Shown piece after piece: positions 11,789 to 45,517 of a stretch of 46,207 nucleotides of DNA. How positions within the stretch are numbered: the stretch's first letter is position 1; each line of letters opens with the position of its first letter. The DNA is from Candidatus Omnitrophota bacterium. GTDB taxonomy: Bacteria; Omnitrophota; Gorgyraeia; Zapsychrales; Zapsychraceae. The position numbers and the translations under genes were made by a program. The stretch covers positions 1 to 46,207 of the forward strand of contig JAGQKV010000009.1 in assembly GCA_020429915.1 (NCBI GenBank), in the 5' to 3' direction. The notes under the pieces were generated by a model. It saw only the letters and a list, made by a program, of their open reading frames with translations, ran no database searches and was not told where the DNA came from.

Positions 11789-14700
11789 CACACAATACAC
11801 TCCTTCCTAAAGTATTTATACTTATAGGTATACAAATCAGATTCTGGATGCGAACAGCCCCGAAAATTCTGTTTATCACCCTCGTGTTGCACCTTGTGCT
11901 GCCCGTCCTGGTGCCCTGCCTTTCGGCCGTCCCGGGTTATGCCCAGGAAGTCCCCGGCCAAGACCCCAGCTTTAGAGATGTCAAGACCGAGGAAGGTTTT
12001 ACCCTCGACTTGAAACAGTTGATCGAGCGCTCCAAGAAGAAGATCGAACAGGTCGATGACAAGCTTAAAGACCAGGCGCGTGATCGGCGGAACCAGCAAC
12101 GCGAGGCCAAGGCACGCGAGTATTTTGATAAGGCAACCACATTGTACGAACGCGGCGACCTCGATCAGGCGCGCGAACTGTGGGAAAAGGCCATCAAGAT
12201 TACCGAACATGAGGAAATGGAGGACTACATCAACCTCAGCGTCCGCCGGCAACGGGTGCAGGAGAAGGCGTTGCGTAAGGCTGAAAAACGCCGTCTGAAG
12301 CGATTGGAAAAGGAGCGCGGATACACCGCCAAGGAAGTGAACAAGAAATACCGCGAGGCGGTGAAGTTTTACCGGGACGAGAAATATCTGGCCGCCAAGG
12401 TGGCCTTTGAGGAAGTCGACGAGATGTTCCCCGATCATAAGGCCACCCGCAGTTACATTGCCCTGATCAATGACAGGATCGAGTCCGATCAGCAAAAGAT
12501 GATCGAGGACAAGTTGAAGAATAAGACCTTCAGCAGTGCCAAGTCCAAGGCCCGTTGGAAAAAGGAACTCGAGGAGGAGGAAAAGGCCCGGCAAAAGGAA
12601 CTGCGCCGCAGGGCGGACAGCCTGTACGAGGAGGCGGTTCAGTTGTACAAGGACAAACAGTTCAAAGTGGCGAAGGAAAAGTTCAAGGAAGTCGAATGGA
12701 TGCTTCCGGATTACAAGAATACGATTAAATATTTGGCCCGGATCGATGGTGACATCAAGAAGCACGGCGTGACCTTTACCGAGGAAGACAAGGTCAAGTA
12801 TTTTAAAGAGGAGTACAAGCGGATACGCGATCGGGACGATTGGGCCGCCCAGAACAAGGTCGATCCCAAATTGGTCCGCGAATCGGCGGACGAAGAACGG
12901 CGGCGGGAAGAAGCCGCTTTTGTGTACGACGCAGCATTGACGCTGTACAAAAAAGACTACCACAAGCAGGCCCTGGAGAAGTTTTATGAAGTCCAGGCGC
13001 TTTATCCCGACTATAAAAAGACACAGTCTTACATCCGCAAGCTTCATAAGAAAGTTCCGGGCAGCGAGAATGATTTTACCCGCATGCGGGAGCAGGCACG
13101 TAAGTCGGCCGCACCTTTGTTTAAGCCGGCGCCCGGGGTCAACGAACAGGTGATTCGGGCCATCGACGACGAGCAGCGCAAACGGATCGATCAGGCGGAG
13201 GGCAAGTACAAACAGGCCCTGGCGTTCTACCAGGAGCACAACCTAACCGAGGCGCAGCGCAAATTTATCGAGGTGGAATCGATCTATCCGGGGTATAAGG
13301 CGACCCGGGATTATCTGAGTCACATCGACGGGGATATCGCGCGGCAGCATGCCGAGAAGAAGGACAACAAGAACGGTGTCGGAGGAATATTCTCTTTTCT
13401 GTCGGGCGGCGGCGACGATACGCATCGCGACAAATACCGCCAGGCGAAGGAATTGTATGCCCAGGAGAAATACCAGGAGGCCATGGACCTCTTTGAAGAG
13501 GTCCAGCACATGAAACCGGGCTATCGCGGCACCGAGAAGTACCTGGCGCGTATTGCCAGGAAACTGGCGGAGCCGCCAAAGGTGGCTGCCAAGACGAAGG
13601 ATGTAGATTCGGATGAGGATGCAGATCCCGGCCGGCGCAATATTGCCAAGAAGGTCGAACCCATTCCGGGGATGACCTCCGGCGTGCCGAAAAATTATCC
13701 GGAAGAGTCCGCCGATAGTCACGAACAAACGGAGGCCGAGAATCATAAGGATATGGTCGCGTTTACAAAACCGGTGACAAGTATGGACGACACAGGCCCT
13801 GTCAAACCGCTGACCGAGATGGAGCGCAAGAAACTGGCGACCAATAGCAAGGAACTGAAGAAGCTACGGGCCAAGGCGGAAAGGGATGGCGTATTGACCG
13901 AAGGCGAGCGGAAATCCTTGCTTTCTAACCGCAAGGATATCGATAAAGAGCTTTCCCGGCAGCAGAAGGAATCAGCGCGGCGCATGGCGGATGTCGTCGA
14001 GGAAACGTACAAGGAAGCGGTAGGGCTCTACAAATTAGAACAATACGCCGGTGCCAAGGCCAAATTCGCCACTGTCGAAGGGATCAAGCCCGGATATAAA
14101 CGCGCGGCGGAGTACATGCGCAAAGCTGATGAATGGCTCAACGAGAAATACCAACCGTTGCCGGATGAGCCCGTGACGGCCACACGCAAGCAACCCCCGG
14201 CGCCGGCCGCGGAACTGGTCGTGGCCGAGGCAAAGGCCGCACCGGTTGAAGAAGCCGCTCCCCGTAAGAAATCTCTCGAAGAGCTGGCAGCGGAGATCGA
14301 CGATGATTATTACCATCCGATGTCGGACATCGAATATTCCCGCCGGACCATGGAGTCCGCGCAGTTGACCGGGGAGGAGACCAGGAAGGCGCGGGAGGCG
14401 CGTTTGCAAAGATTGGCGGATGCCGAGATGAAGGAAGGCGAGGTCATGGCGTCGATTGCCGAAATGACCGATGAAGAACTTAGGGAAAAATACCGGCTTG
14501 GAAAGAATCTTTATCACGCCAAGAATTATCGCAAAGCCAAGACCGTTTTTGCCCAAATCAGTGAACGCCAGGCGGATTACAAAGGGACGCAGCGCTATCT
14601 CCGCAAGATCGATATCATTCTTGACCGGCAAAAGGTCCAGCGGGAAGAGTACCGGCATAAGATGGCGCAGCACGATGAAAAGGATGCGCCCGGGGCTGAA

Positions 14701-16368
14701 TCCCCTGCCGTCGCCGCGGCTGTTCCGTCTCCGGAACCCTCCGGCGAAAAAGCAATCACGAACCGGACCGAAGAGTATTTTGCGGCTGCCGCCCGCAAGG
14801 CCGATCGCCGGAACGGACTCAAACCGCCCGCGTCGTTGACCGGCGGTGCGGTGGGGATGGCGCCGGACGTTGATCAGACTCCGCCTGAATATGCCGTTCA
14901 ACTCGTGAAGGATCTGTATGACGAGGGCAAAAAGTTTTACGGTCAGAAGGATTACCCCGAGGCTCATTCTTTCTTCGCGCGCGTCGAACAGATGCATCCC
15001 GATTACAAGCGCACCCGGCGTTATCTGAAGAAGATTCAGTCGCTGGTGAGTGTGTCCGGTCCCCAGGATTCCGGTGCCGGAGAATTACCTGCGGCGTCGC
15101 AAAAGAAGCCGACCTCACCGCCGCCCGTTCCGTCAGACAAAGGTAAGGCTGACGCCAAGGATGCGGCCGATTACCGCAAGCTGGTCAAGGAACAGCGTGA
15201 AGCGGAGGAGCAAAACAAAAAGCTCGCCCGGTTGGACCGGCGAGCCCGGGCGGAACAAGAAGAGCTGGCCAGTAACCGTGACGCGAACATTTACCGGGAA
15301 ATGCTGGAAGCCCAACGCGCGGACCAAAAACGACTGCAGACGGAGCAGGGAAACGCCCGGCAGGAAAAAGAACTCCGGGCGCAGGAAGAGGAGAAGCGCC
15401 GTAAGCGTGAGGAACGGCAGGCCAAGGAAGAACTCCTGGCCAAGATTAAGAACGACTTGAGAGAGACCCGTCAGCAAGCCCTCGACCTGCTGGCCGCCAA
15501 TGAAGAGTCCAAGGCACAGCTTCAGATCAACAAATTCGATCAGCTGCTTACGCACAGCGGGTTCTCGGCGCGGGAACAACGGCGTTGGGAACGGGATTTC
15601 GAGAAGCGCCGGAAGCGTATTCTGAAGCGTCTGGAGAAGGAACGCGTAAAGGAGGAAAACAGCATCCTCGCCAAGACCAATCTCAGCCGTGAGGAAAAGG
15701 ATAAGCTGACGATCAAACAGCAGCGCGAGTTGGAAAAGATTGAAGAACGGATTCAGACTGAGCAACGCAAGCTTGCCCAGGCGCGTGAAGAAGAAAAGAA
15801 GCGTCTGCAAAAGTTGGCGCAGGCCCAGCAATCGACGGATTCTGCGGCAGAAAAAATAAAACCGTCTGCGGACCGCACGTCCGCGATTAACAAGGCCTTG
15901 GACAATGTGAACATAGCCAAGGTCAAGGCCAGTGATCTGGAAACGCTGGCGGAACTTGAGGAAAAGAAAAAGCGGGAAATCGAAGAGCTGGTCAAGGAGC
16001 GGCAAAAAGAATTGCAAAGCAAGCGCAAGAAGGTCCAGCAGGAATTTGATAAAAGTCTGTCCCAGATGTATAAAAAGGGCGTCCGTTTGTACAAGAAGAA
16101 AATCTACGATGAGTCGGCGAATATCTTCCAGGAGATACAGCGGATGCGGCCGGGCTACAAGAAAGTAGCCCATTACCTTTCCAAGATCGACGAGGAATTG
16201 ATCGAGCAAAAAACCCAGCAATTCCGCGCGCAGCGTCGGTTCCAAACCCCCAACCTCGCCACGTCCGGGGCGCAAGTCGCCGGGCCGGTCCCCCCGACCG
16301 GGAAGAAAGAGAACCGGTTGCAATCGATCAAAAATGCCCTTGATGATTTCGAAGAAAAGATGTGGTAG
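11785..16368 (+). CDS. Exported protein with ten TPR-like repeats and long coiled coil
   Basis: The 1527-residue product has ten repeats of a TPR-like unit: Y..A..LY....Y..A...F.EV, then a [MLI].P.YK.T..YL box. They start near residues 112, 186, 278, 379, 472, 548, 739, 901, 1040 and 1426. Residues ~1130-1420 are dense in K, E, Q and R and should form a coiled coil. The start at 11785 overlaps the upstream stop (ATGA). However, the ATG at 11848 (residue 22) would put a standard signal peptide, ending near GYA-QE, right at the N-terminus, so either start may be used. Secretion to the periplasm is inferred. Coupling to the barrel gene, which itself ends in a TPR-like tail, suggests a partner or scaffold role in assembling the surface protein. 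No close named family is recognised. Confidence 0.8.
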   Translation: MTHNTLLPKVFILIGIQIRFWMRTAPKILFITLVLHLVLPVLVPCLSAVPGYAQEVPGQDPSFRDVKTEEGFTLDLKQLIERSKKKIEQVDDKLKDQARDRRNQQREAKAREYFDKATTLYERGDLDQARELWEKAIKITEHEEMEDYINLSVRRQRVQEKALRKAEKRRLKRLEKERGYTAKEVNKKYREAVKFYRDEKYLAAKVAFEEVDEMFPDHKATRSYIALINDRIESDQQKMIEDKLKNKTFSSAKSKARWKKELEEEEKARQKELRRRADSLYEEAVQLYKDKQFKVAKEKFKEVEWMLPDYKNTIKYLARIDGDIKKHGVTFTEEDKVKYFKEEYKRIRDRDDWAAQNKVDPKLVRESADEERRREEAAFVYDAALTLYKKDYHKQALEKFYEVQALYPDYKKTQSYIRKLHKKVPGSENDFTRMREQARKSAAPLFKPAPGVNEQVIRAIDDEQRKRIDQAEGKYKQALAFYQEHNLTEAQRKFIEVESIYPGYKATRDYLSHIDGDIARQHAEKKDNKNGVGGIFSFLSGGGDDTHRDKYRQAKELYAQEKYQEAMDLFEEVQHMKPGYRGTEKYLARIARKLAEPPKVAAKTKDVDSDEDADPGRRNIAKKVEPIPGMTSGVPKNYPEESADSHEQTEAENHKDMVAFTKPVTSMDDTGPVKPLTEMERKKLATNSKELKKLRAKAERDGVLTEGERKSLLSNRKDIDKELSRQQKESARRMADVVEETYKEAVGLYKLEQYAGAKAKFATVEGIKPGYKRAAEYMRKADEWLNEKYQPLPDEPVTATRKQPPAPAAELVVAEAKAAPVEEAAPRKKSLEELAAEIDDDYYHPMSDIEYSRRTMESAQLTGEETRKAREARLQRLADAEMKEGEVMASIAEMTDEELREKYRLGKNLYHAKNYRKAKTVFAQISERQADYKGTQRYLRKIDIILDRQKVQREEYRHKMAQHDEKDAPGAESPAVAAAVPSPEPSGEKAITNRTEEYFAAAARKADRRNGLKPPASLTGGAVGMAPDVDQTPPEYAVQLVKDLYDEGKKFYGQKDYPEAHSFFARVEQMHPDYKRTRRYLKKIQSLVSVSGPQDSGAGELPAASQKKPTSPPPVPSDKGKADAKDAADYRKLVKEQREAEEQNKKLARLDRRARAEQEELASNRDANIYREMLEAQRADQKRLQTEQGNARQEKELRAQEEEKRRKREERQAKEELLAKIKNDLRETRQQALDLLAANEESKAQLQINKFDQLLTHSGFSAREQRRWERDFEKRRKRILKRLEKERVKEENSILAKTNLSREEKDKLTIKQQRELEKIEERIQTEQRKLAQAREEEKKRLQKLAQAQQSTDSAAEKIKPSADRTSAINKALDNVNIAKVKASDLETLAELEEKKKREIEELVKERQKELQSKRKKVQQEFDKSLSQMYKKGVRLYKKKIYDESANIFQEIQRMRPGYKKVAHYLSKIDEELIEQKTQQFRAQRRFQTPNLATSGAQVAGPVPPTGKKENRLQSIKNALDDFEEKMW

Positions 16369-16426: not shown

Positions 16427-18685
16427 ATGTTGCTACGATTCCTGACGCTCATGACCTTGTGCGGTCTGTCGGCCGCGTTACCATCGGCCGCCGTGGCGGG
16501 CGGGCAACCGCAGGATTTCTTTATGAAACCACAGCAAGAACTCAACCGCCTATCCCGGGAAAAAAGCCCCTACTTGCTGCAACATGCCGCGAACCCGGTG
16601 GATTGGTATCCCTGGTCGGAGGAGGCCTTTGACAAGGCCCGTCGCGAGGATAAGCCGGTCTTTCTGTCCATTGGTTACTCCACCTGCCACTGGTGTCACG
16701 TTATGGAGGAGGAATCCTTCGAGAACGAAATGATCGCCAAATACCTTAATGATCACTTTGTCTCCATAAAAGTCGACCGGGAGGAACGTCCGGATGTGGA
16801 TCACATCTACATGTCGGCTGTGCAGGCCATGACCGGCCAGGGGGGGTGGCCGTTGTCCGTGTTTCTGACCCCCGACCGGAAGCCGTTTTTCGGCGGGACT
16901 TATTTTCCTCCCTACGCGAAATGGGGAAGCCCGGGTTTCTTCGATGTCCTGGCCTCGATCGAACACGGCTGGCGGAACGAACGCGAAAAGATGCTGAATG
17001 CCGGAAACGCGCTGACAGGAATGCTCAAGGAACATCTTCCCGGGGGCTCCGGTGACGCGTCTTTGACCAAGGATATTTTTGAACAAGCCTACACGGAATT
17101 CCGGCAGACGTATGACGATGTGTACGGCGGTTTCGGCCACGCCCCGAAGTTTCCGACCAGCCATAACCTGTCATTCCTGCTGCGCTACACCAGGCGCGCA
17201 CCGGATTCCCGGGCCCAGGAAATGGTGGCCTTCACCCTGCACCGCATGGCCGCGGGCGGCATGTATGATCACCTGGGCGGAGGGTTTCACCGTTATTCCA
17301 CGGATCGGGAGTGGCAGATTCCGCATTTTGAAAAGATGCTCTACGACCAGGCCATTCTCGGCCGCACGTACGTCGAAATGTATCAGCTGACCGGTGATTC
17401 GTTTTACGCGCGTGTGGCCCGCGAGACCTTTGATTATTGCCTGCGCGATCTGCGTGATGCCCAGGGAGCGTTTCATTCCGCCGAAGACGCCGACAGTCTG
17501 GACCCCTATGAGTTTGCGGGGATGCTGCCGGATCCCGCGCAAAAACATAACAAGAAGGAGGGGGCATTCTTTCTCTGGCAGTCCGCTCAGATAGATGATG
17601 TCCTGAGTCAGGCGGATGCAGGTATCTTTAAATGTTATTACGGGATCCGTCCGGACGGAAACGCCAAGTCTGATCCGCACGGCGAGTTCGGCGGACGCAA
17701 TGTCCTGGCGCAAGCCGAGGATCTGCAGGCGTGCGCCGCGCAACTCGGCGTCAGTGTCGAAGATGTATCCGCGAGTTTGCAACGGACGCGCCAGGCGCTT
17801 TTCCCGCTGCGTGAAGAGCGGCCACGGCCGCATCTTGATGACAAGGTGCTGGTCGACTGGAACGGATTGATGATCGGAGCCCTGGCCTTCGGCGGCCGGG
17901 TTTTGGAAGAGCCGCGCTACCTGCAGGCCGCCGAAGAAGCCGCGCGCTTTATTCTGGCCAATATGCTCACGGACGGTCATTTGCTGCACCGGTACCGCGA
18001 CGGTGAGTCGTCGATCCCGGGGATGCTAGAGGATTACGCCTTCTTCATCAACGCCTTGATCGATCTTTATGAAGCGACCTTTGATCCTCTATATATAGAG
18101 AAGGCCGTCGCCCTTCAAGCGGCCTGTGACGAGTCGTTTGCCGACAAAGTGAACGGCGGGTATTATCTGACGGCAGAAGGGGCGGATGATCTGATTTATC
18201 GTCCGAAGGAGATCTATGACGGGGCAATCCCTTCCGGGAATTCGATGGCAGCCCTGGCCCTGGTCCGGTTGTACCACATTACCTTTGACAAGAAATATCT
18301 CGACCGTGCTCAGAAGCTGTTTGCCTCCTTTGCCGGGACTGTCCGCAAACGGCCGAGTGCCTTTGCGCAGATGCTGATGGCGTTTGATTTCGCTGTCGGT
18401 CCGTCGGCGGAGATCGTGATCGCCGGAGCGCGGGAAGATGCGGGGGTGCGTGACATGTCTGACGAGGTTTTTCGCAGTTTTATTCCGAACCGGGTCCTGA
18501 TTCATCGTGACAGCGATCCGCGTAAGGGCGAGGCATTGTGGGAGCTGGTGCCGTTCCTGGAAAAGCAGCCGCCGGTGGACGGTCGACCGACCGCGTATGT
18601 CTGCGAAAATGCCGTTTGTCAGCGGCCCGTCACGGATCTCCCGGAATTGAAAAAGATTTTGGAAAACCTGGTTAAAGAGGAATAG
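16427..18685 (+). CDS. yyaL: YyaL/DUF255-family thioredoxin-fold protein
   Basis: Near residue 40 the protein carries the family hallmark [15 protein letters not shown], then [13 protein letters not shown] and a CHWC redox-type motif at residues 87-90. The rest (~250-750) matches the alpha/alpha-barrel half of the SPATA20/YyaL family (length normally ~680-750). Biochemical function in bacteria is not established. The start at 16427 gives a plausible signal peptide (cleavage near AVA-GG), which would make this an exported version. The ATG at 16523 has an AGGA seven bases upstream and would give the usual cytosolic form, so location is uncertain. It is followed after 3 bp by an AsmA-like gene, which suggests co-transcription and perhaps an envelope role. 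Confidence 0.88.
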
Positions 18686-35137: not shown

Positions 35138-38100
35138 ATGCTGACTTTCCTTCACAAATTGCGCCGTCACGCCCCGGTCCGCGTATTGACGGTTTTCGTC
35201 CTGATGTCATTTATCGGTGTCGGGGTGACGCCGACCCCCGTCGTCGCCGGCGAGAGCATTTTCGCTCCGATGCCGCGTCCCGGGACCATGGTCTCCACGA
35301 CCGAGCGTTTTGTTCCTACCTTGCTGAAGGGGATCATGATCAACCCCACCGAACCGTTTCAGCTTGATTTCATCGTCGATACCGGTCATCGCTCACGCCG
35401 CGATGAAGGTCTGGAAGAGGAAAAGATCCGGCTCATCAAATATTTTATGGCCGCGCTGACCGTCCCGGAAGACGATTTGTGGGTCAACCTTTCTCCGTTC
35501 GAACAACAGCGCATCATACCGGAAAAGTTCGGTTACACCGATATGGGCCGCGATCTGCTCGCCCAGGATTATCTGCTCAAACAACTCACCGCTACCCTGA
35601 TGTATCCCGAAAAAGAACTCGGTCACAACTTTTGGGACCGTATCTATAAGCAGGCGCAGGCCCGTTTCGGGACCACTGATATTCCGGTGAACACCTTCAA
35701 CAAGGTGTGGATCATCCCCGAAGAAGCGGTCATCTATGAGCAGGGGAATGCCGCCTATATCGTCAATACCCGCTTGAAGGTCATGTTGGAAGAAGACTAC
35801 ATCGCCCTTGATAAAAACTTGGCGCAGCGCACTCAGGCGGTGCCGGCTGAAAAAGACGAGAGTGAGGTCAACAGCCTGGCGTCGGAAGTCATCCGTGAGG
35901 TGATCCTGCCGGCGATTGAGGAGGAAGTGAATTACGGGAAGAATTTCGCCACCCTGCGGCAGATTTATCACTCCCTGATTTTGGCGGCCTGGTACAAAGA
36001 ATCGATCAAGACCAGTCTGATCAACCAGCTCTACTCTGACCAAAACAAGGTCAACGGTATCGACATCGATGACAAAGAGGTCAAGGACCGGATTTACCGG
36101 CAGTATATCGAGGCCTTTCAGGAGGGCGTCTACAGCTACATCCGGGAAGAATTCGATCCGGTGACACAGGAGGTGATCCCGCGCAAGTATTTCTCCGGCG
36201 GGGTGCGGTTCAGGATGAGTATCCGTGAAGGTGTGATCAGCCGCACGTCGGACGCGGCGGTCCTTTCGGCCCCGGTCGGCGATACCGAAGTGGTGCAGGT
36301 CGGGCTGCTGAACACCAACCGCCGGCGGCGTGACCAGGCGGTCCTGGCCACCCGTACGCAGGATTTACGCGCCGATCAGGTCCGGCCCGAGGAGTTCGCG
36401 GCCGTCGTGGATGAGTATTTGGAGCAACTGAGTCAGTCCGGTGAGACGTCGAGTTTCGATCGCGGCCAGTGGCTCCGGGGACGCGGGCCGCGCGGAAATG
36501 AGAATTCCTTAATGGTCCTGCGCACGCGTGACGGTAACCGGATCGTCGGTCTGGCCAGTCACCGCATCGGGCAAATCCCGTCGGTGGACGCGGATCTCGT
36601 GGGACAACGCTCTTACATTGTTGATTATATCGAAGTCGCCCCGGAATACCGGAGCACGGGGTATGGTAAGATCCTGCTGTCGGAAGTGATGCGGACGAGC
36701 CTGACCGACAGTGCCTGGGATGCGGACGCGGAGACGGCGAACCCCGGCGAGTTGGTCCTCAACCCCGCCGACGCCGAGGCCGAACGCTATTTTTCCCAGC
36801 AGGGATTCAGGGAAATCCCGCGCGATACGTCCGAAGACTTTGTGTATGACAGTCCGAGCCTGCTTCAGGCGCAGCGGTTCTTCCGTCTCAGCGGGCAGGC
36901 GGCGCGGACACTGTACCGGGACGGGCAGGCCTTAAAGGCTCAGCCCGAGGACGCCGAACGCTGGGCGCGTATCGCTCCGATCTACGAAGCGCAAGGAACT
37001 GAGGCGGCTCCCGGAGAACAACTGGGGCTTTTTCCCGACGGAATTGATGACGCCGCCTCCGGAGAGGCCGGAGTCGACCGGGCCGTGTTATCGCGGCCCA
37101 ACTGGGAACGCTTTGTCCCGCGCGGGATTGACGCCAATCCGGCCTGGCGCAGGGATCCCGCTTATTCGGATTTCAGCAACCGTATGGGCAGTAACGCGAC
37201 GGTGGATCAATCTCTGGGGTCGTTTATGGACCTTCTACGGGAAGAGTCCATCCCGCTACCGGGATCTTTCCGCCGCGGGGCCATACTCGGATTCGGTGAG
37301 AGCGCGGCGGAGCTGATCTCGGTCCGTTCGGCATTCAATTTGCAGGAAGTGCACGGTGTCGAGTGGGTGGGGGATCGCGTGCAGACCGCGGCGGAGGCCC
37401 TGGCGCAAAGCAATATGTTTCCTAACCAAATTTCTCTGCATCACGCCAACATGGCCGATCTCGGACGTGAGTTCGGTCCGGGCACCTTTGATTTCGTCTA
37501 TGCCGCGATGATTTCGGATACCCATGACAACGCCCCTGTTGCCATCGCCCGGGAAATCAACCGTATTCTGCAACCGGGCGGATATGCGTTCATCAATGAG
37601 GGGAATTCGGACTTTATCGCTTACCTTGAGAAACGCGGTACTTTGACCCGTTGGGCCGGGTCGAACGTGTCCATTTTCCGCAAGGCCGGGGTGCTGCCCG
37701 ACCAGCTGGAAAAAACGGCCGGCCTGAACGCGGATCAACGCAGAGTGCTGACCGAGCTTGCCAACTTCGATGCGATCTCGAAGGAACTCGGCCGGGCCGT
37801 AGCCAATGAACCGGCGGTGGCCGAACTCCTGGCCCAAAGCAACCTGTTCAGCGATGATCTCCTCGTTAGCCGTTCGGCCGGCTACCGACCGACGGATTCG
37901 ATCGGACTCTTCGGCTATGATGAGCTCCCCGGACTGATCGGCGGCATGCGGTTGCGCACGGAGAACCAATTTTATTTCAAGGCCCTTCAGCAGCATGCCC
38001 CGCAAATCGTTGCCTACGCGCGCGCCCTGTTGGATAATCCCGAGTACGCGGGGAAGAAATTTGTAGCCCTGGGCCGCGGCGCGGATTTGATATACGACGC

Positions 38101-40786
38101 CATGGTGGCCCTGACTTATTTGGACGCACGCTACGCCGACCGCCGCGGTGACCTCACCATCATCGATTTTTCCAGTGAAAACGTCACGGAGCTCGGCACC
38201 GACGAGAATATCGACGCGTACGGCGAGATGTTTCTGCGGCAGATTTCCCGTCAGCTGAATCTGTCGAGCTTCGAAAATCTTGTTTTTATCAATGAAGTCG
38301 CCAGCGAAAGCAACACCACGCGCGCCCTCCTGGACAGATTTCTGGATACACCCTTCGAATACACCGCCGGGGTTATTTACGACAATATCGAAACCCGCAG
38401 CGGAACCCGGTGGGACGGCAGCAACGATACCTCGGCCTTCGACTGGCTGGATTCGGACTATCGCAGCGGACGGACCTATCAAATCCAGTCGTTCCCGCTG
38501 TTCGGTCTGGGACACCAGTACGGAGTGACGCCGTTTCAACGTTTCCTCAATCAGGAAGCCGTGTACAGCGAAGTGTACCGGCAATCCGCCGGATTGACGA
38601 CGGTAGGGGCTTCGGCCGACCGCGCGGTCCTCGCGGTCACCGACGCGGAGTTTGACGGCTTGCAAAGCACGCTGGAAATCCTGCAAACCATTGCCGGACA
38701 ACTCGACACCTTTGTGACCAACCGGGGTTTGCGCGAGTACCGGCAGGAATTGGAACGTTGGAACCGTGATGCGGTCGCCGCGCTGGCGGAGGCGGAGCGG
38801 ACCGGCACGGTGCCCGCGAATCTTGAGGAATTGGCGCGCCGGATGATGGCGTTGAATGAAAGCACGCCCAAGGCGGCGGCGGATGCCCTGAAAACGTACA
38901 GTACCGGGGAATCTTCATTCCTGCAGATATTCGCGGGGCGAACGTTTTCGTTCTTTAATGAGGGGGGTGATGCGCTACAGGAGAGGAACAGTGAATATGC
39001 CGTGTATGATTATATTGATAAGCTGAACAAGGCGTTGTCTTCCGCTATTTTTGCCGGTGATATGTTTATTGAAGACTTGGCCGGCGATCCGCTCGAGAAT
39101 TTGCGAATGGCGCAGTCGTTTGCGGAACGTGGGGTCCGTGATTTGGACAACTATTTCAACTTGCTGCGTGATACCCTCGATCCGTCCGGCATCAACGTGG
39201 TCGATTTTGAAATGGGATTGGAAAAAGATGCCTTTCCGCAGGCGGCTTATGGTGAATTCCTGCTGCCGTACGCACAAGTCCTGGCGGCCCGGCGGCAGGG
39301 GCGGTTGGACAATGCCATATTAGTCGGAAACGATCTGCGGCAAACAGCGGATTTCCTCGGTGCGGATACGGACCTTGTCCGTGAGGCGTTCCTCGCCAGT
39401 ATCGATCAGGAATCCGCTCTCAAGCGTTTGTCAGTCGGTTTGGATATCGAACCGGCGGTAGTATTGACGCGCCTGATCGAAACCGGATTGGCGCGCCGGA
39501 ATGAACAGCGTGGCGAGTTGGGATTTGATCTGACAACGGCTTTCTTTGCCGCCGACGAAAATACAGTATTGATCATATCCGGTCAGGACCGTTTCGCCGA
39601 GATGTCCCGTTCTATTTTGGAAGAGCTGCGTGAGGACCGGTTTGCCGCCGAGTTGGCCGCGCGCGGCATCGACCTCGGCGCCGCTCCGCTCGCGACGCGT
39701 CTTGCCGAACAGGCCGCCACCGAGGAAGGCTTGCCGACGGTGCTCGAGCTCGTCCGGCTGTCCGGGCAGCGACAGGAACAGCGCGCCGATGCCGCTCCGT
39801 TGGTGACCGAATCGACTCCTTCAAGACCGCAACTGGCGCCGGACCTGTTGGCTGCCTATGATTCTTACGTTGATTTGTTGGGGAACGTTTTGGCCGAACT
39901 GCAAAACCGCCGGGCCGGGGATCAGGTCTGGTTTATCTTCGACCACCAGTACTGGGACAACCTCCCGGCCAACAGCATGGCCCGCGACCAGCGCAACGGC
40001 GATTTTCTGATTCATCTTCATACCAGCGAGGGAGATTTGACCCGCGGCTTCCTGTTCCGGATTAATCCCGATGCCGATGAAGGTGAACCGATCTTCGACA
40101 AATTCTGGATTGAGGACACCAGCAGCCAGGGATTTGTCGACGGGCAACGTTTTGTGGATGCCGGCTACATCACAGCCGATTTTGCCCGGCAATTGCTGGA
40201 GGACGCGACAGCGGTGATGCGCCAAGACGACGGTTTCCCGATCATGGACCGTTACGCGCAAATGCGCAAAGATTTCTATCCGCTGATGCAGGACGTCATC
40301 AACAAGCGGCCCGAAAAGGCCCTGTTTGTTGTCGGCGCCGTGCAGGACGCGCGGGGGCAGGATGTCCTGATCAACATCTTCCGCAAGCGTGACGTGGCCA
40401 AGGCCGATGCCGACGGAACGCTGCCGCGCAGTTTCTCCGGCCCGTCCAATGCGAGCTATCCGGTCGCCTACAAGGTGACCGCCGACCAGGCGGTCTTGGG
40501 CGCTAACCCGGTCGGGGGTATCGATCTGACCCCCAACAATCTTAATATCGATGTGCGCCGGGATCCGAACGGCGTTCCGGTACCGTTAACCCCGCAACAG
40601 ATCCAGGACGTCAATATTAACGGTTTGTATCCGGTGATCATCAACACGGTCCCGGTTACCAGTGTTCCATTGTTGCTGGGGATCGCTGACAGGCCGGATG
40701 CGTCAACCGATTTGAGCCAGGCCCCGCCCGCTGTTCCGGCCAATACTGTTCCCGCCGCCCCGGACCTGCTGAGCCTGCTGCGTTAA
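35138..40786 (+). CDS. Giant modular exported protein with GNAT-like and methyltransferase-like domains
   Basis: The 1882-residue protein starts with a signal-peptide-like segment (about residues 1-38, ending VVAGES). A module to ~370 follows, with FNKVWIIPEEAVIYEQG and RKYFSGGVRFRM boxes, which I associate with giant proteins of Omnitrophota-type genomes. A GNAT acetyltransferase-like domain follows (~405-580; IEVAPEYRSTGYGKILL). Next come a SAM-methyltransferase-like domain (~690-850; ILGFGESAAELISV), another Rossmann-like stretch (~960-1090; VALGRGADLIYDAM) and mostly helical regions to ~1560. The C-terminal part has a DQVWFIFDHQYWDNL segment and a final VGGIDLTPNNLNIDVRRDPN module (from ~1787). 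Five D-x-AVL motifs occur at residues 372, 399, 647, 1161 and 1783, at or near borders. Enzyme activity is unproven; cofactor domains in an apparently exported protein are unexpected. Confidence 0.82.
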   Translation: MLTFLHKLRRHAPVRVLTVFVLMSFIGVGVTPTPVVAGESIFAPMPRPGTMVSTTERFVPTLLKGIMINPTEPFQLDFIVDTGHRSRRDEGLEEEKIRLIKYFMAALTVPEDDLWVNLSPFEQQRIIPEKFGYTDMGRDLLAQDYLLKQLTATLMYPEKELGHNFWDRIYKQAQARFGTTDIPVNTFNKVWIIPEEAVIYEQGNAAYIVNTRLKVMLEEDYIALDKNLAQRTQAVPAEKDESEVNSLASEVIREVILPAIEEEVNYGKNFATLRQIYHSLILAAWYKESIKTSLINQLYSDQNKVNGIDIDDKEVKDRIYRQYIEAFQEGVYSYIREEFDPVTQEVIPRKYFSGGVRFRMSIREGVISRTSDAAVLSAPVGDTEVVQVGLLNTNRRRRDQAVLATRTQDLRADQVRPEEFAAVVDEYLEQLSQSGETSSFDRGQWLRGRGPRGNENSLMVLRTRDGNRIVGLASHRIGQIPSVDADLVGQRSYIVDYIEVAPEYRSTGYGKILLSEVMRTSLTDSAWDADAETANPGELVLNPADAEAERYFSQQGFREIPRDTSEDFVYDSPSLLQAQRFFRLSGQAARTLYRDGQALKAQPEDAERWARIAPIYEAQGTEAAPGEQLGLFPDGIDDAASGEAGVDRAVLSRPNWERFVPRGIDANPAWRRDPAYSDFSNRMGSNATVDQSLGSFMDLLREESIPLPGSFRRGAILGFGESAAELISVRSAFNLQEVHGVEWVGDRVQTAAEALAQSNMFPNQISLHHANMADLGREFGPGTFDFVYAAMISDTHDNAPVAIAREINRILQPGGYAFINEGNSDFIAYLEKRGTLTRWAGSNVSIFRKAGVLPDQLEKTAGLNADQRRVLTELANFDAISKELGRAVANEPAVAELLAQSNLFSDDLLVSRSAGYRPTDSIGLFGYDELPGLIGGMRLRTENQFYFKALQQHAPQIVAYARALLDNPEYAGKKFVALGRGADLIYDAMVALTYLDARYADRRGDLTIIDFSSENVTELGTDENIDAYGEMFLRQISRQLNLSSFENLVFINEVASESNTTRALLDRFLDTPFEYTAGVIYDNIETRSGTRWDGSNDTSAFDWLDSDYRSGRTYQIQSFPLFGLGHQYGVTPFQRFLNQEAVYSEVYRQSAGLTTVGASADRAVLAVTDAEFDGLQSTLEILQTIAGQLDTFVTNRGLREYRQELERWNRDAVAALAEAERTGTVPANLEELARRMMALNESTPKAAADALKTYSTGESSFLQIFAGRTFSFFNEGGDALQERNSEYAVYDYIDKLNKALSSAIFAGDMFIEDLAGDPLENLRMAQSFAERGVRDLDNYFNLLRDTLDPSGINVVDFEMGLEKDAFPQAAYGEFLLPYAQVLAARRQGRLDNAILVGNDLRQTADFLGADTDLVREAFLASIDQESALKRLSVGLDIEPAVVLTRLIETGLARRNEQRGELGFDLTTAFFAADENTVLIISGQDRFAEMSRSILEELREDRFAAELAARGIDLGAAPLATRLAEQAATEEGLPTVLELVRLSGQRQEQRADAAPLVTESTPSRPQLAPDLLAAYDSYVDLLGNVLAELQNRRAGDQVWFIFDHQYWDNLPANSMARDQRNGDFLIHLHTSEGDLTRGFLFRINPDADEGEPIFDKFWIEDTSSQGFVDGQRFVDAGYITADFARQLLEDATAVMRQDDGFPIMDRYAQMRKDFYPLMQDVINKRPEKALFVVGAVQDARGQDVLINIFRKRDVAKADADGTLPRSFSGPSNASYPVAYKVTADQAVLGANPVGGIDLTPNNLNIDVRRDPNGVPVPLTPQQIQDVNINGLYPVIINTVPVTSVPLLLGIADRPDASTDLSQAPPAVPANTVPAAPDLLSLLR

Positions 40787-40884: not shown

Positions 40885-41880
40885 ATGACAAGCAGTGAAA
40901 TCACGGTGATCAATGAGAAAGTGCAAAAGGAGAGCGCTTTTATCGAAGGCATCTTCTTAGAGGCGCAAAAGGTCATCGTCGGTCAGCGGTACTTGCTCGA
41001 ACGGCTAATGGTCGGCCTGTTGGCCAACGGTCACATTTTGCTGGAAGGGGTGCCGGGGCTGGCCAAGACCACCGCCGTCAAGACGCTGTCGGCGACCATC
41101 AAGACCAAATTCCAGCGGCTGCAGTTCACGCCGGACATGCTTCCCGCCGATTTGACCGGGACGCTGATCTACGATCAGAAGAGCGGCGACTTCAAGACCA
41201 AGAAGGGCCCCATCTTCGCCAATATCATCCTGGCGGACGAAATCAACCGCGCTCCGGCCAAGGTGCAAAGCGCCCTGCTGGAGGCCATGCAGGAACGGCA
41301 AGTGACGATCGGTTCTGACACCTTGACCTTGGACGATCCGTTTCTCGTTTTGGCAACGCAGAATCCGATCGAGCAGGAAGGGACCTATCCGTTGCCCGAA
41401 GCTCAGGTCGACCGGTTTATGCTCAAGATCAAGATCGATTATCCTAATAAAGAGGAAGAGCATGAGATTCTCAAACGCATGTCGCATACCAAAACCGACA
41501 TCCGTGTCCAGCCGGTGATTACTCCGGAGGACCTGCTGCGAGCGCGCAGCGTGGTCGACGAGATTTATATGGACGAGAAGATCGAGAAATATATCGTCGA
41601 GATTGTCGATTCCACGCGCAATCCCGATAAGTACAATCTGTCGGACATCAAGAGCCTCTTGCAGTACGGAGCCTCGCCGCGGGCCACGATCAATCTGGCC
41701 ATAGCCGCCAAGGCGCATGCTTTCCTGCAGGGCAGGGGCTACGTGACGCCGCAGGATGTCAAGACCATCGGCATGGACGTGTTGCGCCACCGGGTCCTGA
41801 TCAGTTATGAGGCCGAGGCCGAAGAAAAAACGTCCGAAGATATCATTCAACGCATTTTCGACGAAATCGAAGTTCCTTAA
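40885..41880 (+). CDS. moxR: MoxR-family AAA+ ATPase
   Basis: The 331-residue protein has Walker A GVPGLAKT (residues 55-62), Walker B ILADEINRAP (about 115-124), the MoxR box QNPIEQEGTYPLPEAQ and LLQYGASPRATINL as sensor 2. MoxR ATPases act as chaperones that mature or insert metal into VWA-domain partners. Here it leads an operon with DUF58 and two VWA genes, the classical arrangement. Start chosen by the GGGAGG site ten bases upstream. Confidence 0.95.
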   Translation: MTSSEITVINEKVQKESAFIEGIFLEAQKVIVGQRYLLERLMVGLLANGHILLEGVPGLAKTTAVKTLSATIKTKFQRLQFTPDMLPADLTGTLIYDQKSGDFKTKKGPIFANIILADEINRAPAKVQSALLEAMQERQVTIGSDTLTLDDPFLVLATQNPIEQEGTYPLPEAQVDRFMLKIKIDYPNKEEEHEILKRMSHTKTDIRVQPVITPEDLLRARSVVDEIYMDEKIEKYIVEIVDSTRNPDKYNLSDIKSLLQYGASPRATINLAIAAKAHAFLQGRGYVTPQDVKTIGMDVLRHRVLISYEAEAEEKTSEDIIQRIFDEIEVP

Positions 41881-42011
41881 CACAGAGCAACGGGGCCAGA
41901 GACACAAACTGCGGGAAATCACCATCGCAGGCTCGCCATCCTTCCTCGGGTGCTCTTTCCCTCCGGTCATGTCTCTCCGTTGCCAGCGAGTCAACTCGTA
42001 ACGGTAGGCGT

Positions 42012-42926
42012 ATGATACCCAAAGAACTATTCCGCAAAGTACGGCAGATTGAAATCACGACTTCCCGGCTGGTCACCGATGCCTTTGCCGGCCAGTACCA
42101 CAGTGTCTTCAAAGGGCAGGGGATCGAGTTTGATGAGGTGCGTGAGTATCAGATCGGCGACGATATCCGCAGCATCGACTGGAACGTGACCGCGCGGACC
42201 GGCAAACCGTACATCAAAAAGTTCATCGAAGAACGCGAACTGACGGTGATGATAATGGTCGATCTGTCCGCGTCGGCTAAATTCTCGTCGGGCGATGAAC
42301 TCAAAAGTCAGCTGGCCGCGGAAATGTCGGCGTTGCTGGCCCTCTCTGCGATCCGCAATAACGACAAGGTCGGTTTGATCATTTTCACGGACGAAATCGA
42401 ACTGTTCATTCCGCCGCGCAAAGGGCGCGGACACGTCCTGCGTCTGATTCGTGAGGTTCTGTATTTCCGCCCGCAAAGGACCTCCACCAATATCCGGCAG
42501 GCCCTGGAATTCATGAGCCGCGTGACGACCCGTAAGGCCATTACTTTTCTGATATCCGATTTCCTGGGGCACAACCTGGAAGTGCCGCAGGGAGAGGTAG
42601 ATGACAGTTTTAGAAAAACACTCTCCATCGCGCATCAACGCCATGATCTGATCGCGGTCACGCTCAATGATCCGCATGAACTGACGCTGCCCGACTGCGG
42701 TCTGGTGGTTTTAGAGGACGCGGAGACGGGTAGGCTGGTGTGCGTCGATGCCGGCAACGCGGGCGTCCGCCGGCGTTATGAGGAAGCCAATCGAACCCGC
42801 ATCGAAAAGCGGGAACAACTTTTTCGATCATTGGGCATCGACTTTATCAATATCTCGACGGCTGGCTCGTATGTGGACGAGGTCGTCCGTTTTTTTCGGA
42901 AACGCTTAAAAAAGATTCGCCGATAA
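42012..42926 (+). CDS. DUF58 domain protein of the Bat operon
   Basis: The 304-residue protein has the DUF58 signature GIEFDEVREYQIGDDIRSI followed by DWNVTARTGKPYIKKF, then a VWA-like fold with MIMVDLSASAKF (the metal-site region). DUF58 proteins are standard partners of MoxR ATPases. A 131-bp gap without a recognisable gene separates it from moxR. The next gene starts 1 bp after its stop. Confidence 0.92.
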   Translation: MIPKELFRKVRQIEITTSRLVTDAFAGQYHSVFKGQGIEFDEVREYQIGDDIRSIDWNVTARTGKPYIKKFIEERELTVMIMVDLSASAKFSSGDELKSQLAAEMSALLALSAIRNNDKVGLIIFTDEIELFIPPRKGRGHVLRLIREVLYFRPQRTSTNIRQALEFMSRVTTRKAITFLISDFLGHNLEVPQGEVDDSFRKTLSIAHQRHDLIAVTLNDPHELTLPDCGLVVLEDAETGRLVCVDAGNAGVRRRYEEANRTRIEKREQLFRSLGIDFINISTAGSYVDEVVRFFRKRLKKIRR

Positions 42927-42927
42927 T

Positions 42928-43527
42928 ATGAAAGCCAGATTCCTCATGACACTTATTCTGCCGGTCGTCGGCAGCCTGACCCCGCCGGTTGCGTTGGGAG
43001 CGGATGATCAAACAGGGCTGCGTGATATCCGTGGGCCGGTGGCCTATCCGCTCGATCCGGTGTTGGTCGCTCTTTTGTTGTTGATTGTTCTGGCGGGGAT
43101 CGCGGTCCTGTTGCGGTGGTGGGTACGGATGTACCGCCGCCGTCGCGCCTATGTCCCTCCGGTGCCGCCGCGGCCGCCGTGGGATATCGCGCTGGAGCTG
43201 CTGGAGAAACTCAAGGCAAAGAAGTATCTCGAGTACGACAAATTCGATCAGTATTACTCCGAACTGTCGGATATCCTGCGTCGCTACATGGAAGATTATT
43301 TCGGCATCCGCGCTCCGGAAATGACGACCGAGGAGTTTCTGGTATCGATCCGGCACCATGACGCCGTGGCCGAGGAACACAAGGCGCTGCTCGCCCGTTT
43401 CATGCAGCAGGCGGACGTGGTGAAGTTTGCCAAGGCCGCGCCGACGGCAGAGGAAGCCGATCAGAGTTGGGAGCTCGCCCGGCGATTCATCATGCAGTCA
43501 TACGAGGACGAGGAAGACGCGAAATGA
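42928..43527 (+). CDS. DUF4381-like membrane protein of the Bat operon
   Basis: The 199-residue protein has a signal peptide (about 1-24, ending ALG-AD), the short IRGPVAYPLDP box and one membrane helix (about 38-62, LLLLIVLAGIAVLLRWWV). Basic residues and a cytosolic helical domain follow (YDKFDQYYSELSDILRRYME). DUF4381-type genes sit between DUF58 and the first VWA gene in many Bat operons, as here. Its stop overlaps the next start as ATGA. The precise role is unknown. Confidence 0.82.
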   Translation: MKARFLMTLILPVVGSLTPPVALGADDQTGLRDIRGPVAYPLDPVLVALLLLIVLAGIAVLLRWWVRMYRRRRAYVPPVPPRPPWDIALELLEKLKAKKYLEYDKFDQYYSELSDILRRYMEDYFGIRAPEMTTEEFLVSIRHHDAVAEEHKALLARFMQQADVVKFAKAAPTAEEADQSWELARRFIMQSYEDEEDAK

Positions 43528-44516
43528 TATTCAAGACCCCGTGGATTTTGGCGTTGATTCCTGTGGTGATCACTTTGGTGCTGTTTCTGCGCAGCCGGCG
43601 GCCCAGCCCCGCACTCCGCTTCTCCGCCGAGGCGCTGGTGCGCGAAACGGGGCAGTCCCTGCGGCTGCGGTTATTGTTTATCCCGCCGCTGTTACGCTAT
43701 ACGGCCCTGGTCCTGTTTGTCGTGGCTCTGGCCGGACCGCGCCTGATTAACGAGGAAACCATCCGCAAGACCGAGGGGATCGACATCGTCTTGACCGTGG
43801 ACACGTCGACAAGTATGTCGGCCGAGGATTTTGTCGTCGGTAATCAGCGTATCAACCGGCTTGAGGTCGTCAAGCAGGTGATGTCGGACTTTATCGAACA
43901 GCGCAAATCCGACCGGATAGGCCTGGTCGCCTTTGCCGCGCGGGCGTGGACGGTGACGCCGTTGACCACCGATTATGCCTGGCTGAAAACGAACTTGAAG
44001 CGGATCAATTTCGGTATCATTAAGGATGGGACCGCCATTGGCCCGGCAATCATGGCGTCCATATCCCGACTGCAATCCAGCACGGCCAAGAGCAAGGTCG
44101 TCATCCTGTTGACGGACGGGGCAGACACCGGGAACACGATCGATCCGCGGGAGGCCGCCAAGGTAGCCAAATCATTCGATATTAAAATTTACACCATCGG
44201 CGCTGGATCCGATGGTCAGGCCCCGGTACCGCGTAACTTCTTCGGCCGGCGTATATATGTCCAGCAACCGGTCGTGATCGACGAGGAACTTCTAAAGGAT
44301 GTGGCCTTCACGACAAACGGGAAGTACTACCGGGCCACGGATACCGATGAGTTACGCAAGATTTACGAGGAAATCGACCAGTTGGAAAAAACGGAGATCG
44401 AAGAAATCGGTTACTTCGAATATACCGAGCTGTTCGACCGCTTCCTGCTCGGTGCGCTGGCCCTGTTGCTGGCCGAGGTGCTGATGACGAACAGCTGGAT
44501 GATGAGGTTGCCCTGA
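43524..44516 (+). CDS. batA: VWA-domain membrane protein BatA
   Basis: The 330-residue protein has two N-terminal membrane helices (about 5-20 and 56-75), a VWA domain with MIDAS residues D93, S95 and S97 (VDTSTSMSAEDF) and TDGADTGN near 200, and a C-terminal helix (LLGALALLLAEVLMTN). This is the BatA layout. The ATG at 43524 overlaps the upstream stop (ATGA) and starts directly at MIFKTPWILALIP; longer open sequence 5' of it has no family match. Bat proteins were first linked to oxygen tolerance in Bacteroides. Confidence 0.9.
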   Translation: MIFKTPWILALIPVVITLVLFLRSRRPSPALRFSAEALVRETGQSLRLRLLFIPPLLRYTALVLFVVALAGPRLINEETIRKTEGIDIVLTVDTSTSMSAEDFVVGNQRINRLEVVKQVMSDFIEQRKSDRIGLVAFAARAWTVTPLTTDYAWLKTNLKRINFGIIKDGTAIGPAIMASISRLQSSTAKSKVVILLTDGADTGNTIDPREAAKVAKSFDIKIYTIGAGSDGQAPVPRNFFGRRIYVQQPVVIDEELLKDVAFTTNGKYYRATDTDELRKIYEEIDQLEKTEIEEIGYFEYTELFDRFLLGALALLLAEVLMTNSWMMRLP

Positions 44517-45517
44517 TGCAGTTTGCCCAACAATTTATGTTCAACGGATTTTGGATTGTGGCCGGGTTGGTCCTGTTCCTGTGGTGGGCGTCCGCTTACC
44601 GCCGTCGGCAATTGCAGAAGTTTGTCTCCGCCAAGCTCATGCCGGATATTGCCGGGAGCGTTTCACCGGCGGCGCGGAACCTGAAATATGTCCTGCTGAT
44701 CCTGACATTTATCTTCGGCATCATCGCCCTGGCACGGCCGCAGTGGGGGTTCGAATGGCAAGAAGTCAGGCGTCAGGGTATCGACGTGATGGTGATCGTG
44801 GACGTTTCCAAAAGCATGCTGACCCAGGACGTCCGCCCCAACCGTTTGGAGCGCACCAAACTGGCGGTACTCGATTTGTTAAAAAAACTCAAGGGCGACC
44901 GGATCGGCCTGGTCGCCTTTGCCGGCGACGCCTTTTTAATGTGCCCGCTGACCAATGACTACGCCGGATTCGCATTAAGCCTGGATGACCTGACCATCGA
45001 CAGTGTTCCGCGTGGCGGGACCAATATCGACCGGGCCATGCAGGTGGCGATGAAGAGTTTCGATGAGATCGACAGCCAGTACAAGGCGATCATCGTCATC
45101 ACCGACGGTGACAATCATGAAGGCGACCCCGTGGAGCAGGCACGTCGGGCCAAGAAGAGCGGGATTCGCGTCTATACGATCGGGATCGGAACGAAGGAAG
45201 GCGAATTGATTCAACTCTCGGACGTGCAGGGATCGGCCCGTTTTCTTAAGGATGATGAGGGTAATTTTGTCAAATCCCGCCTGAACGAACGGCTGCTGCA
45301 GCAGATCGCGCTGTTGACCGACGGCGTGTATGTCAAATCCAGCGGAGCCGAGTTCGGGTTGGACTACATATACGAGAACGATCTGGCCAAACTGGAAAAA
45401 AGGGAAATAGAGAGCAAGATGCAGAAGCGTTTCTATGAGCGTTTTCAATGGCCGCTGTCCGTGGCTTTGCTCCTGTTTTGTATGGAATCATGCATATTGA
45501 CACGCCGAAGAAAATAG
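44516..45517 (+). CDS. batB: VWA-domain membrane protein BatB
   Basis: Two N-terminal helices precede a VWA domain with the MIDAS triad D96, S98 and S100 (DVSKSMLTQD) and ITDGDNHEGD near 200. A last helix lies close to the C-terminus (PLSVALLLFCMES), followed by RRRK. The protein is 333 residues, like BatA, its likely paralogue. The start overlaps the batA stop as TGATG, which implies coupling. The next gene begins inside its last 28 bases. Confidence 0.9.
   Translation: MQFAQQFMFNGFWIVAGLVLFLWWASAYRRRQLQKFVSAKLMPDIAGSVSPAARNLKYVLLILTFIFGIIALARPQWGFEWQEVRRQGIDVMVIVDVSKSMLTQDVRPNRLERTKLAVLDLLKKLKGDRIGLVAFAGDAFLMCPLTNDYAGFALSLDDLTIDSVPRGGTNIDRAMQVAMKSFDEIDSQYKAIIVITDGDNHEGDPVEQARRAKKSGIRVYTIGIGTKEGELIQLSDVQGSARFLKDDEGNFVKSRLNERLLQQIALLTDGVYVKSSGAEFGLDYIYENDLAKLEKREIESKMQKRFYERFQWPLSVALLLFCMESCILTRRRK

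Follow-up and report, generated by a model that had tools for sequence, protein, structure and literature searches.

A framed gene and its parts

The window analyzed here is a stretch of 46,207 nucleotides from a Candidatus Omnitrophota bacterium (assembly GCA_020429915.1, contig JAGQKV010000009.1), and it carries the gene for a large protein in which a constant N-terminal module (N-module) and a constant C-terminal module (C-module) enclose a variable middle. The proteins that share this frame suggest, without proving it, that the bacteria run enzymes outside their own cytoplasm by means of framed exported proteins. The gene occupies positions 35138..40786 on the + strand, which is also the strand of all the parts described below. 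It starts with ATG, has 5649 bases, and encodes 1882 residues, none of which is cysteine. A preliminary description of this DNA was correct about the open reading frame (ORF), and the two strings that it quoted, FNKVWIIPEEAV and VGGIDLTPNNLNIDV, are present. In a crude scan, residues 1-38 (35138..35251) resemble a signal peptide, with a basic start, then a hydrophobic core, then small residues by the putative cut; the exact end is a matter of judgement. The N-module covers residues 1-355 (35138..36202), ends in YFSGG, and has 35 copies in the same genome. The C-module, delimited with a family profile, covers residues 1783-1849 (40484..40684; GGIDLTP...) and is followed by a variable tail beyond the profile match, residues 1850-1882 (40685..40783).

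The middle of the protein contains two recognizable domains and a short repeated tag. The string D-x-AVL was said to occur five times, and a motif scan finds it at the same residues: DAAVL at 372 (36251..36265), DQAVL at 399 (36332..36346), DRAVL at 647 (37076..37090), DRAVL at 1161 (38618..38632), and DQAVL at 1783 (40484..40498), where it heads the C-module. The tag at residue 647 separates a GNAT-like domain, approximately residues 425-559 (36410..36814), from a methyltransferase-like domain, approximately residues 731-834 (37328..37639). Both had been predicted, and both pass Pfam cut-offs. Acetyltransf_1 (PF00583) matches residues 425-520 with 21.2 bits and passes its cut-off of 20.7 narrowly. 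Methyltransf_11 (PF08241) matches residues 733-819 with 29.2 bits (cut-off 21.2), and Methyltransf_25 (PF13649) scores 29.6 bits (cut-off 27). The GNAT-like domain has R-S-T-G-Y-G, in agreement with what we take to be the acyl-CoA motif, R/Q-x-x-G-x-G/A; motif I of the methyltransferase is weak by eye. Unlike the usual GNAT acetyltransferases and class I methyltransferases, these domains lie within an exported-looking, cysteine-free frame. Beyond them the protein has no Pfam match above cut-off, and no NCBIfam match above cut-off was found. A further Rossmann-like segment had been proposed; it has no Pfam match, and its best PDB sequence match is at an E-value of 0.75 or worse. The segment at approximately residues 940-1140 (37955..38557, limits set by eye) matches nothing in Pfam and nothing convincingly among PDB sequences, and residues 1166-1782 (38633..40483) have no Pfam match above cut-off.

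The constant frame, its payloads, and its spread

The N-module and C-module are found together in 35 proteins of the same genome. With the first 376 residues as query, the 3.35-Mb genome gives 35 matches, which are the protein itself and 34 others at 44-56% identity. The N-module opens a long ORF in all 35 cases (open frames of at least 865 residues), and the C-module lies near the C-terminus of each of them in a search with a profile built from the same 35 proteins. A simple search with the last 113 residues gives 33 matches in this genome at E 1 or better. The framed proteins have 821 to 5092 residues and 72,893 in total, which is computed to be about 6.5% of the genome. Across the 35 paralogues, 46 of the 355 columns of the N-module are invariant; its first methionine is set by the choice of start. 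The AlphaFold2 (AF2) model of residues 1-395 is fair, with a mean predicted local distance difference test (pLDDT) of 78.4 and a predicted template modelling score (pTM) of 0.77. The C-module modelled alone gives no confident structure (pTM 0.19). No relative of the N-module was found in Pfam, NCBIfam, or the PDB, including a PDB comparison of the AF2 model; there is a weak match to SurA_N_3, a family of SurA-type chaperones (E 0.024, 14.9 bits against a cut-off of 27.2). Distances between N-modules and between C-modules are correlated (Mantel rho 0.373, reached in 0 of 1000 permutations), which fits inheritance of the two modules as a unit and possibly contact between them.

The frame is widespread among relatives of the window genome. 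A scan of genome contigs gave at least 462 loci encoding the N-module, and the best 80 of these are the named relatives. Their titles are mostly Omnitrophota or Omnitrophica, with some Planctomycetales, Elulimicrobium, Aceula, and plain bacterium. Five loci with the frame (L078, L143, L088, L135, and L147) are titled Planctomycetales or Elulimicrobium; such titles may not match current taxonomy. The 80 loci hold 97 N-module ORFs, of which 74 are closed by a stop and the others are incomplete. Sixty-seven of the closed ORFs have a C-module within 51 residues of the end. Among the other seven, four have a C-module in the next ORF, one has a divergent C-terminal end by eye, and two have none. The idea of constant ends is thus borne out both in the window genome (35 of 35 N-module ORFs) and in the named relatives (67 of 74). 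Across 38 related genomes the N-module has 633 matches, from 0 to 63 in each, and 35 of the genomes have at least one. In a phylum-wide sample, 70 of 238 genomes have a match, and all 70 belong to the same class as the window genome or are closer to it; up to eight candidates per genome were scored in this survey, copy numbers being taken from the 38-genome search instead, and 148 genomes without a match carry no class breakdown. In the order to which the window genome belongs, 28 of the 30 members shown carry a match. In 12 further genomes of the class, all 15 N-module matches lie inside frames of at least 649 residues. One relative (L165, on contig C12 of genome G002) has two tandem class-I aldolases in a 3299-residue ORF that closes with the C-module and begins at the contig end.

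The payloads between the modules are diverse. BLAST at 1e-6 against the middles from this genome and from the fetched relatives finds no match for 19 of the 35, consistent with the earlier suggestion that the middles are mostly unrelated. The remaining ones have single-domain matches at differing positions, or match relatives over most of their length. Apart from the window protein, 19 of the other 34 middles have a Pfam family above cut-off, and metabolic-enzyme domains pass their cut-offs in at least nine of the 35. According to Pfam, malate synthase, class-I fructose-bisphosphate aldolase, and isocitrate lyase are combined in one protein (L058). Others carry UDPGP and PGM (L054, first), GTP-type PEPCK (L054, second), a PEP synthase type (L055), a PEP-utilizer domain (L052, second), a glutamate dehydrogenase type (L061), ROK (L063), and the set NUDIX, AprA-type methyltransferase, PALP, and MaoC (L051); a match to FBPase (L062) is below cut-off. 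A protein of 4028 residues (L073) contains GlgB, two GlgA-type units, and GH77, which we take to be the MalQ-type family. Three adjacent framed genes on the same strand of contig C1 encode the malate synthase/aldolase/isocitrate lyase, UDPGP/PGM, and PEPCK proteins. The other recognized payloads are PrmA-type methyltransferases with a helix-turn-helix domain (HTH; L064), HATPase with HTH (L045), WD40 (L048), HEAT (L060, L068, and L069), M48 with ABC1 (L047), a response regulator (L059), histidine phosphatase with methyltransferases (L050), and a metallophosphatase (L053).

Similar payloads occur in the relatives. Forty middles were drawn from 66 complete relatives (300-4000 residues each, with a limit on the total), and the first 25 of their 42 Pfam families include ABC1 and M48 (four each), PPDK_N (three), PGK and enolase (two each), and single cases of glutamate dehydrogenase, alanine dehydrogenase, hexokinase, radical SAM, Fic, ankyrin, and more. 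Eighteen further members include three with metallophosphatase and three with HATPase, and one each with GAPDH, enolase, phosphoglycerate mutase, and UDPGP. Five of these 18 were chosen for holding PGK, so that the count of PGK is set by construction and that of GAPDH may be as well. By eye, three framed proteins of the window genome have internal segments like twin-arginine or lipobox signals (L066 near residue 366, L059 near 1391, and L069 near 435), which would fit the capture of entire precursor genes.

Putative export signals, cysteine loss, and the border tag

The framed proteins look exported and have lost nearly all of their cysteine. A crude scan, with the nearest methionine as start, finds a basic start and a hydrophobic stretch in 35 of the 35 proteins and an A-x-A-like site in 31; L045 is doubtful, since its scored hydrophobic stretch falls after the probable cut. 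There are 13 cysteines in 71,318 mature residues, or 0.018%, compared with 0.40% in 25 control ORFs of the same genome sorted as exported and 1.17% in 44 sorted as cytosolic. The framed proteins are therefore about 60-fold below the cytosolic controls, with the qualification that the sorting is crude and that ORFs with X and three framed ORFs were left out. In the named relatives the values are 0.078% in 97 framed ORFs and 1.13% in 277 control ORFs. Control ORFs in both sets were called mechanically, and some may be spurious, which may inflate the control cysteine. Two of the 13 cysteines are in the CKKCGH of isocitrate lyase and two in the CGLCGQ of PEP synthase. Four are in the internal signal-like segments of L059 and L069, N-modules account for two more and a C-module for one, and the last two are a Cys-Cys pair at residues 1311-1312 of L071. 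Judged from their sequence context, several of these are catalytic. The cysteines kept in relatives include two in copies of SNASCTTNA (L129), presumably the GAPDH motif, and those of CxxxCxxC in L075, L099, and L135, which we take to be a radical-SAM-like motif. Overall, both export and cysteine loss are well supported by these patterns.

The tag is enriched in the framed proteins and avoids recognized domains. D-x-AV[LM] occurs 51 times in the 35 proteins, compared with a mean of 4.4 and a maximum of 11 in 200 shuffles, and twice in 117 other ORFs of the genome (1.9 expected). With relaxed tags, 60 of 123 are within the 14.4% of the sequence nearest to the two modules. One of 50 tags lies inside a stretch matched by Pfam or the PDB, compared with 9.0 expected, where the domain limits were entered by hand and not every weak match was included. 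The tags are thus at borders, as the preliminary description held. It had also named a lack of enrichment in homologues as refuting, and this applies in part. The exact D-x-AVL is not enriched in the relatives (6 against 4.3 in shuffled sequences), but lineage variants are, with 82 copies of D-x-AM[LVIM] against 4.0 and 36 of SSP[VI] against 2.0. The spelling depends on the assembly: D-x-AV[LM] in the window genome, D-x-AM[LVI] or SSP[VI] in others, and neither in several. In 14 distant members, SSP[VILM] occurs 31 times against 0.7 expected, and 14 of these copies are in one protein of 3785 residues.

One explanation of this pattern is that the tags are cutting sites, and that the framed proteins are exported polyproteins split by a lineage-specific protease. 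This is compatible with enzymes acting outside the cytoplasm and is possible, if on balance doubtful. The avoidance of domains and the lineage-dependent spelling are in its favor. Synonymous codons also differ among copies of the tag, which places the constraint on the protein. However, linker or docking roles fit these data equally well, several assemblies lack both tags, 13 of the 35 framed proteins of the window genome have no exact D-x-AV[LM], and SSP[VILM] is absent from 7 of the 14 distant members. No protease was found, and none was searched for.

Active sites and the proposed function of the framed proteins

Many of the framed enzymes have active sites that look intact, and some are degenerate. 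In alignments, the aldolase keeps its site lysines, acids, and arginine, isocitrate lyase keeps KKCGH, PEPCK has GSGYGGNA and the GKTN loop, PEP synthase has TSHAA and CGQ, and GlgB has all three acids. The sites of GH77 and of both GlgA units were judged by motif. We assume that the aligned residues have their usual roles. The 4028-residue glycogen protein has a counterpart of 4033 residues in genome G002, which is cysteine-free past its first 28 residues. The enzyme domains of this pair have identities of 0.52-0.63, with proportions of nonsynonymous differences (pN) of 0.24-0.33 and of synonymous differences (pS) of 0.72-0.83. For the single computable enzyme domain the ratio of nonsynonymous to synonymous rates (dN/dS) is 0.14, a value to be read as indicative because pS is close to saturation. 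Sequence comparison thus gives good support for continued constraint on many of the framed enzyme domains.

A different explanation is that the payloads are retired enzymes that now serve as building blocks of a surface or coat or as binding modules, so that the chassis makes an outer layer or adhesins and no catalysis takes place. In its favor, a coat or adhesin role has been proposed for giant Omnitrophota proteins (PMC10066038), and some payloads consist of repeats, among them HEAT, WD40, and ankyrin. Some framed PGKs are also altered. Relatives have extra PGK copies in longer frames, with the N-module in the same ORF for seven of the nine fetched. Of eight long-frame PGKs compared, a set that excludes the split PGK of genome G004, only that of G008 keeps all five checked motifs, with conservative changes; several are altered, and that of G007 is degenerate. 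On the other side, the catalytic residues of aldolase, isocitrate lyase, PEP synthase, and GlgB align intact, and cysteine is retained at catalytic positions while being lost nearly everywhere else. In the one orthologue pair, the N-module has an identity of 0.59, which three of the four enzyme domains equal or exceed and GH77 does not reach. On balance, retired enzymes are an unlikely explanation.

The reading that we prefer, and consider somewhat better than an even chance, is that an export chassis places still-acting enzymes outside the cytoplasm of the producer, perhaps in a partner cell. The window protein would be one member of a large framed exported family. Its signal peptide would route it through Sec, and the N-module and short C-module would together act as a chassis for folding, anchoring, or delivering the middle. 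The modules enclose at least one domain, in many cases a cytosolic-type enzyme, and the linkers between domains carry a short lineage-specific tag that might serve for cutting or docking. In the window protein the payload would consist of an acetyltransferase, a methyltransferase, and further domains without a match. Nearly all cysteine is gone while several catalytic or cofactor-binding residues remain, a pattern that fits enzymes still acting outside the cytoplasm. The recognized payloads of this genome include glyoxylate, gluconeogenic, and glycogen enzymes, some in three adjacent genes, and look like a deployed pathway. Several payloads depend on ATP, GTP, CoA, or nucleotide sugars, so the most plausible place of work may be the cytoplasm of another cell or a closed space against it. 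Catalysis outside the cytoplasm is inferred; a partner cell as destination and the function of the tag are guesses.

The preliminary description had held that the domains are either non-catalytic or stay inside the cell. This choice is not forced, because catalytic residues are retained in many domains of proteins that have an exported look and hardly any cysteine. Some payloads do not look intact, and activity is judged here from sequence.

Several observations weigh against enzymes acting outside the cytoplasm. The sequence data indicate no secretion route beyond Sec and no partner cell. Most of the middle of the window protein has no family match; of the other 34 middles, five have below-cut-off families only and ten have no family at E 0.001, and some payloads (HTH, HEAT, WD40, response regulator) are not metabolic. 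In addition to the altered PGKs, the framed glutamate dehydrogenase and PGM are altered by eye. Low cysteine is partly a general trait, since 6 of 57 control ORFs of at least 300 residues in the window genome are cysteine-free. Depletion is weaker in the distant members, where cysteine makes up 0.23% of 19,014 residues, and relatives retain further cysteines without an evident role. The C-module profile matches only 1 of the 14 distant members, and the full-form C-module is therefore assigned, on this comparison, to the wider lineage of the window genome. Seven other distant members show, by eye, a GGIDL-, AGID-, or GGVDF-like stretch close to their end; the C-terminal end of the older frame may have been shorter.

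It is also conceivable, though improbable, that the proteins are kept on the producer side, or within a compartment of the cell, by a hydrophobic start that acts as an anchor, and there assemble into multi-enzyme complexes for metabolite channelling. The payloads need cytosolic cofactors and make up a coherent set of central-metabolism enzymes, and radical-SAM-like members keep iron-sulphur motifs. In the window genome GTP-type PEPCK and class-I aldolase occur only in framed form, in a search limited to these two enzyme types. For PGK and GAPDH the genome has a single canonical copy each and none framed. Against internal assemblies are the basic start, hydrophobic core, and A-x-A-like site in most of the proteins and the depth of cysteine depletion relative to the cytosolic controls. 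In addition, there is a separate canonical GlgA of 507 residues with eight cysteines and EPCGL, compared with no cysteines and EPSGL in both framed copies.

Polymorphic toxins combine a constant trafficking part with an exchangeable payload. The earlier suggestion of a conventional polymorphic toxin or display system, which the constant ends, the exchangeable middle, and the Fic domain in 1 of the 40 relatives' middles would fit, is very improbable, since the payload is in mid-protein with a constant C-module after it and not at the C-terminal tip, the recognized payloads are mostly metabolic, regulatory, or repeat domains with few that are toxin-like, and the next gene in the window encodes a MoxR ATPase with no evident immunity gene identified, although no systematic search for immunity genes was made.

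The MoxR ATPase gene belongs, with vWA genes, to a Bat-like cluster directly downstream of the framed gene (40885-45517, +). Elsewhere in the window are two adjacent long ORFs of 2955 and 1527 residues (2921-16368, +), which are cysteine-poor and have DUF11, Big_6, and TPR matches, and a DsbH-type thioredoxin-like protein (DUF255; 16427-18685, +) with 1.2% cysteine.

For enzymes acting outside the producer, Chlamydia is the nearest working parallel. Chlamydia trachomatis is described as secreting GlgA, GlgB, GlgX, GlgP, and MalQ by type 3 secretion (PMC4829429), and the phosphoglucomutase CT295 is also secreted (PMC9251005). In both systems housekeeping carbohydrate enzymes would be outside the bacterial cell, which for the framed proteins is inferred from sequence, and the window genome frames GlgB, GlgA, GH77, UDPGP, and PGM-like domains. 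The enzymes of Chlamydia have type 3 secretion signals and no signal peptide in the account of PMC4829429, whereas those described here are in long signal-bearing frames. Unlike Chlamydia, the window genome also frames glyoxylate and gluconeogenic enzymes.

Giant ORFs are already known from Omnitrophota. They are described as longer than 20 kb, and many of them come from a single class and combine adhesion domains with transmembrane helices (Seymour et al. 2023, PMC10066038). The framed genes belong to the same phylum and also encode large, poorly annotated proteins, but the window gene has 5.6 kb. The two classes can overlap, because G007 has one N-module frame of 7650 residues. Five genomes (G011, G028, G026, G006, and G007) have frames of 8,610 to 33,383 residues with GlgA-like stretches, in which no N-module was found. 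A word search of the main text of PMC10066038 gives zero occurrences of glycogen, glyoxylate, gluconeogenesis, cysteine, paralog, and signal peptide. No account of the frame was found in the open PMC literature, including the available text of PMC10066038, PMC8542988, and PMC12057145, with subscription papers and preprints outside the scope.

The finding gives hundreds of genes of uncultured bacteria that lack an assigned role a shared anatomy and a testable role. In its most far-reaching and quite tentative form, one Omnitrophota class would deploy a second central carbon metabolism (glycolysis, gluconeogenesis, glyoxylate shunt, and glycogen synthesis) outside the cytoplasm, as exported, nearly cysteine-free polyproteins on a single chassis that are cut or docked at lineage-specific tags and work in or against a partner cell. 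If the tag is a cutting site, this would be a bacterial polyprotein system. The loss of cysteine with catalytic ones kept may serve as a natural record of how enzymes are remodelled for export. Activity of the framed domains would mean that textbook cytosolic enzymes operate beyond the cytoplasm of their producer, which would bear directly on the lifestyle of these bacteria, for some of which host dependence has been proposed (PMC10066038).

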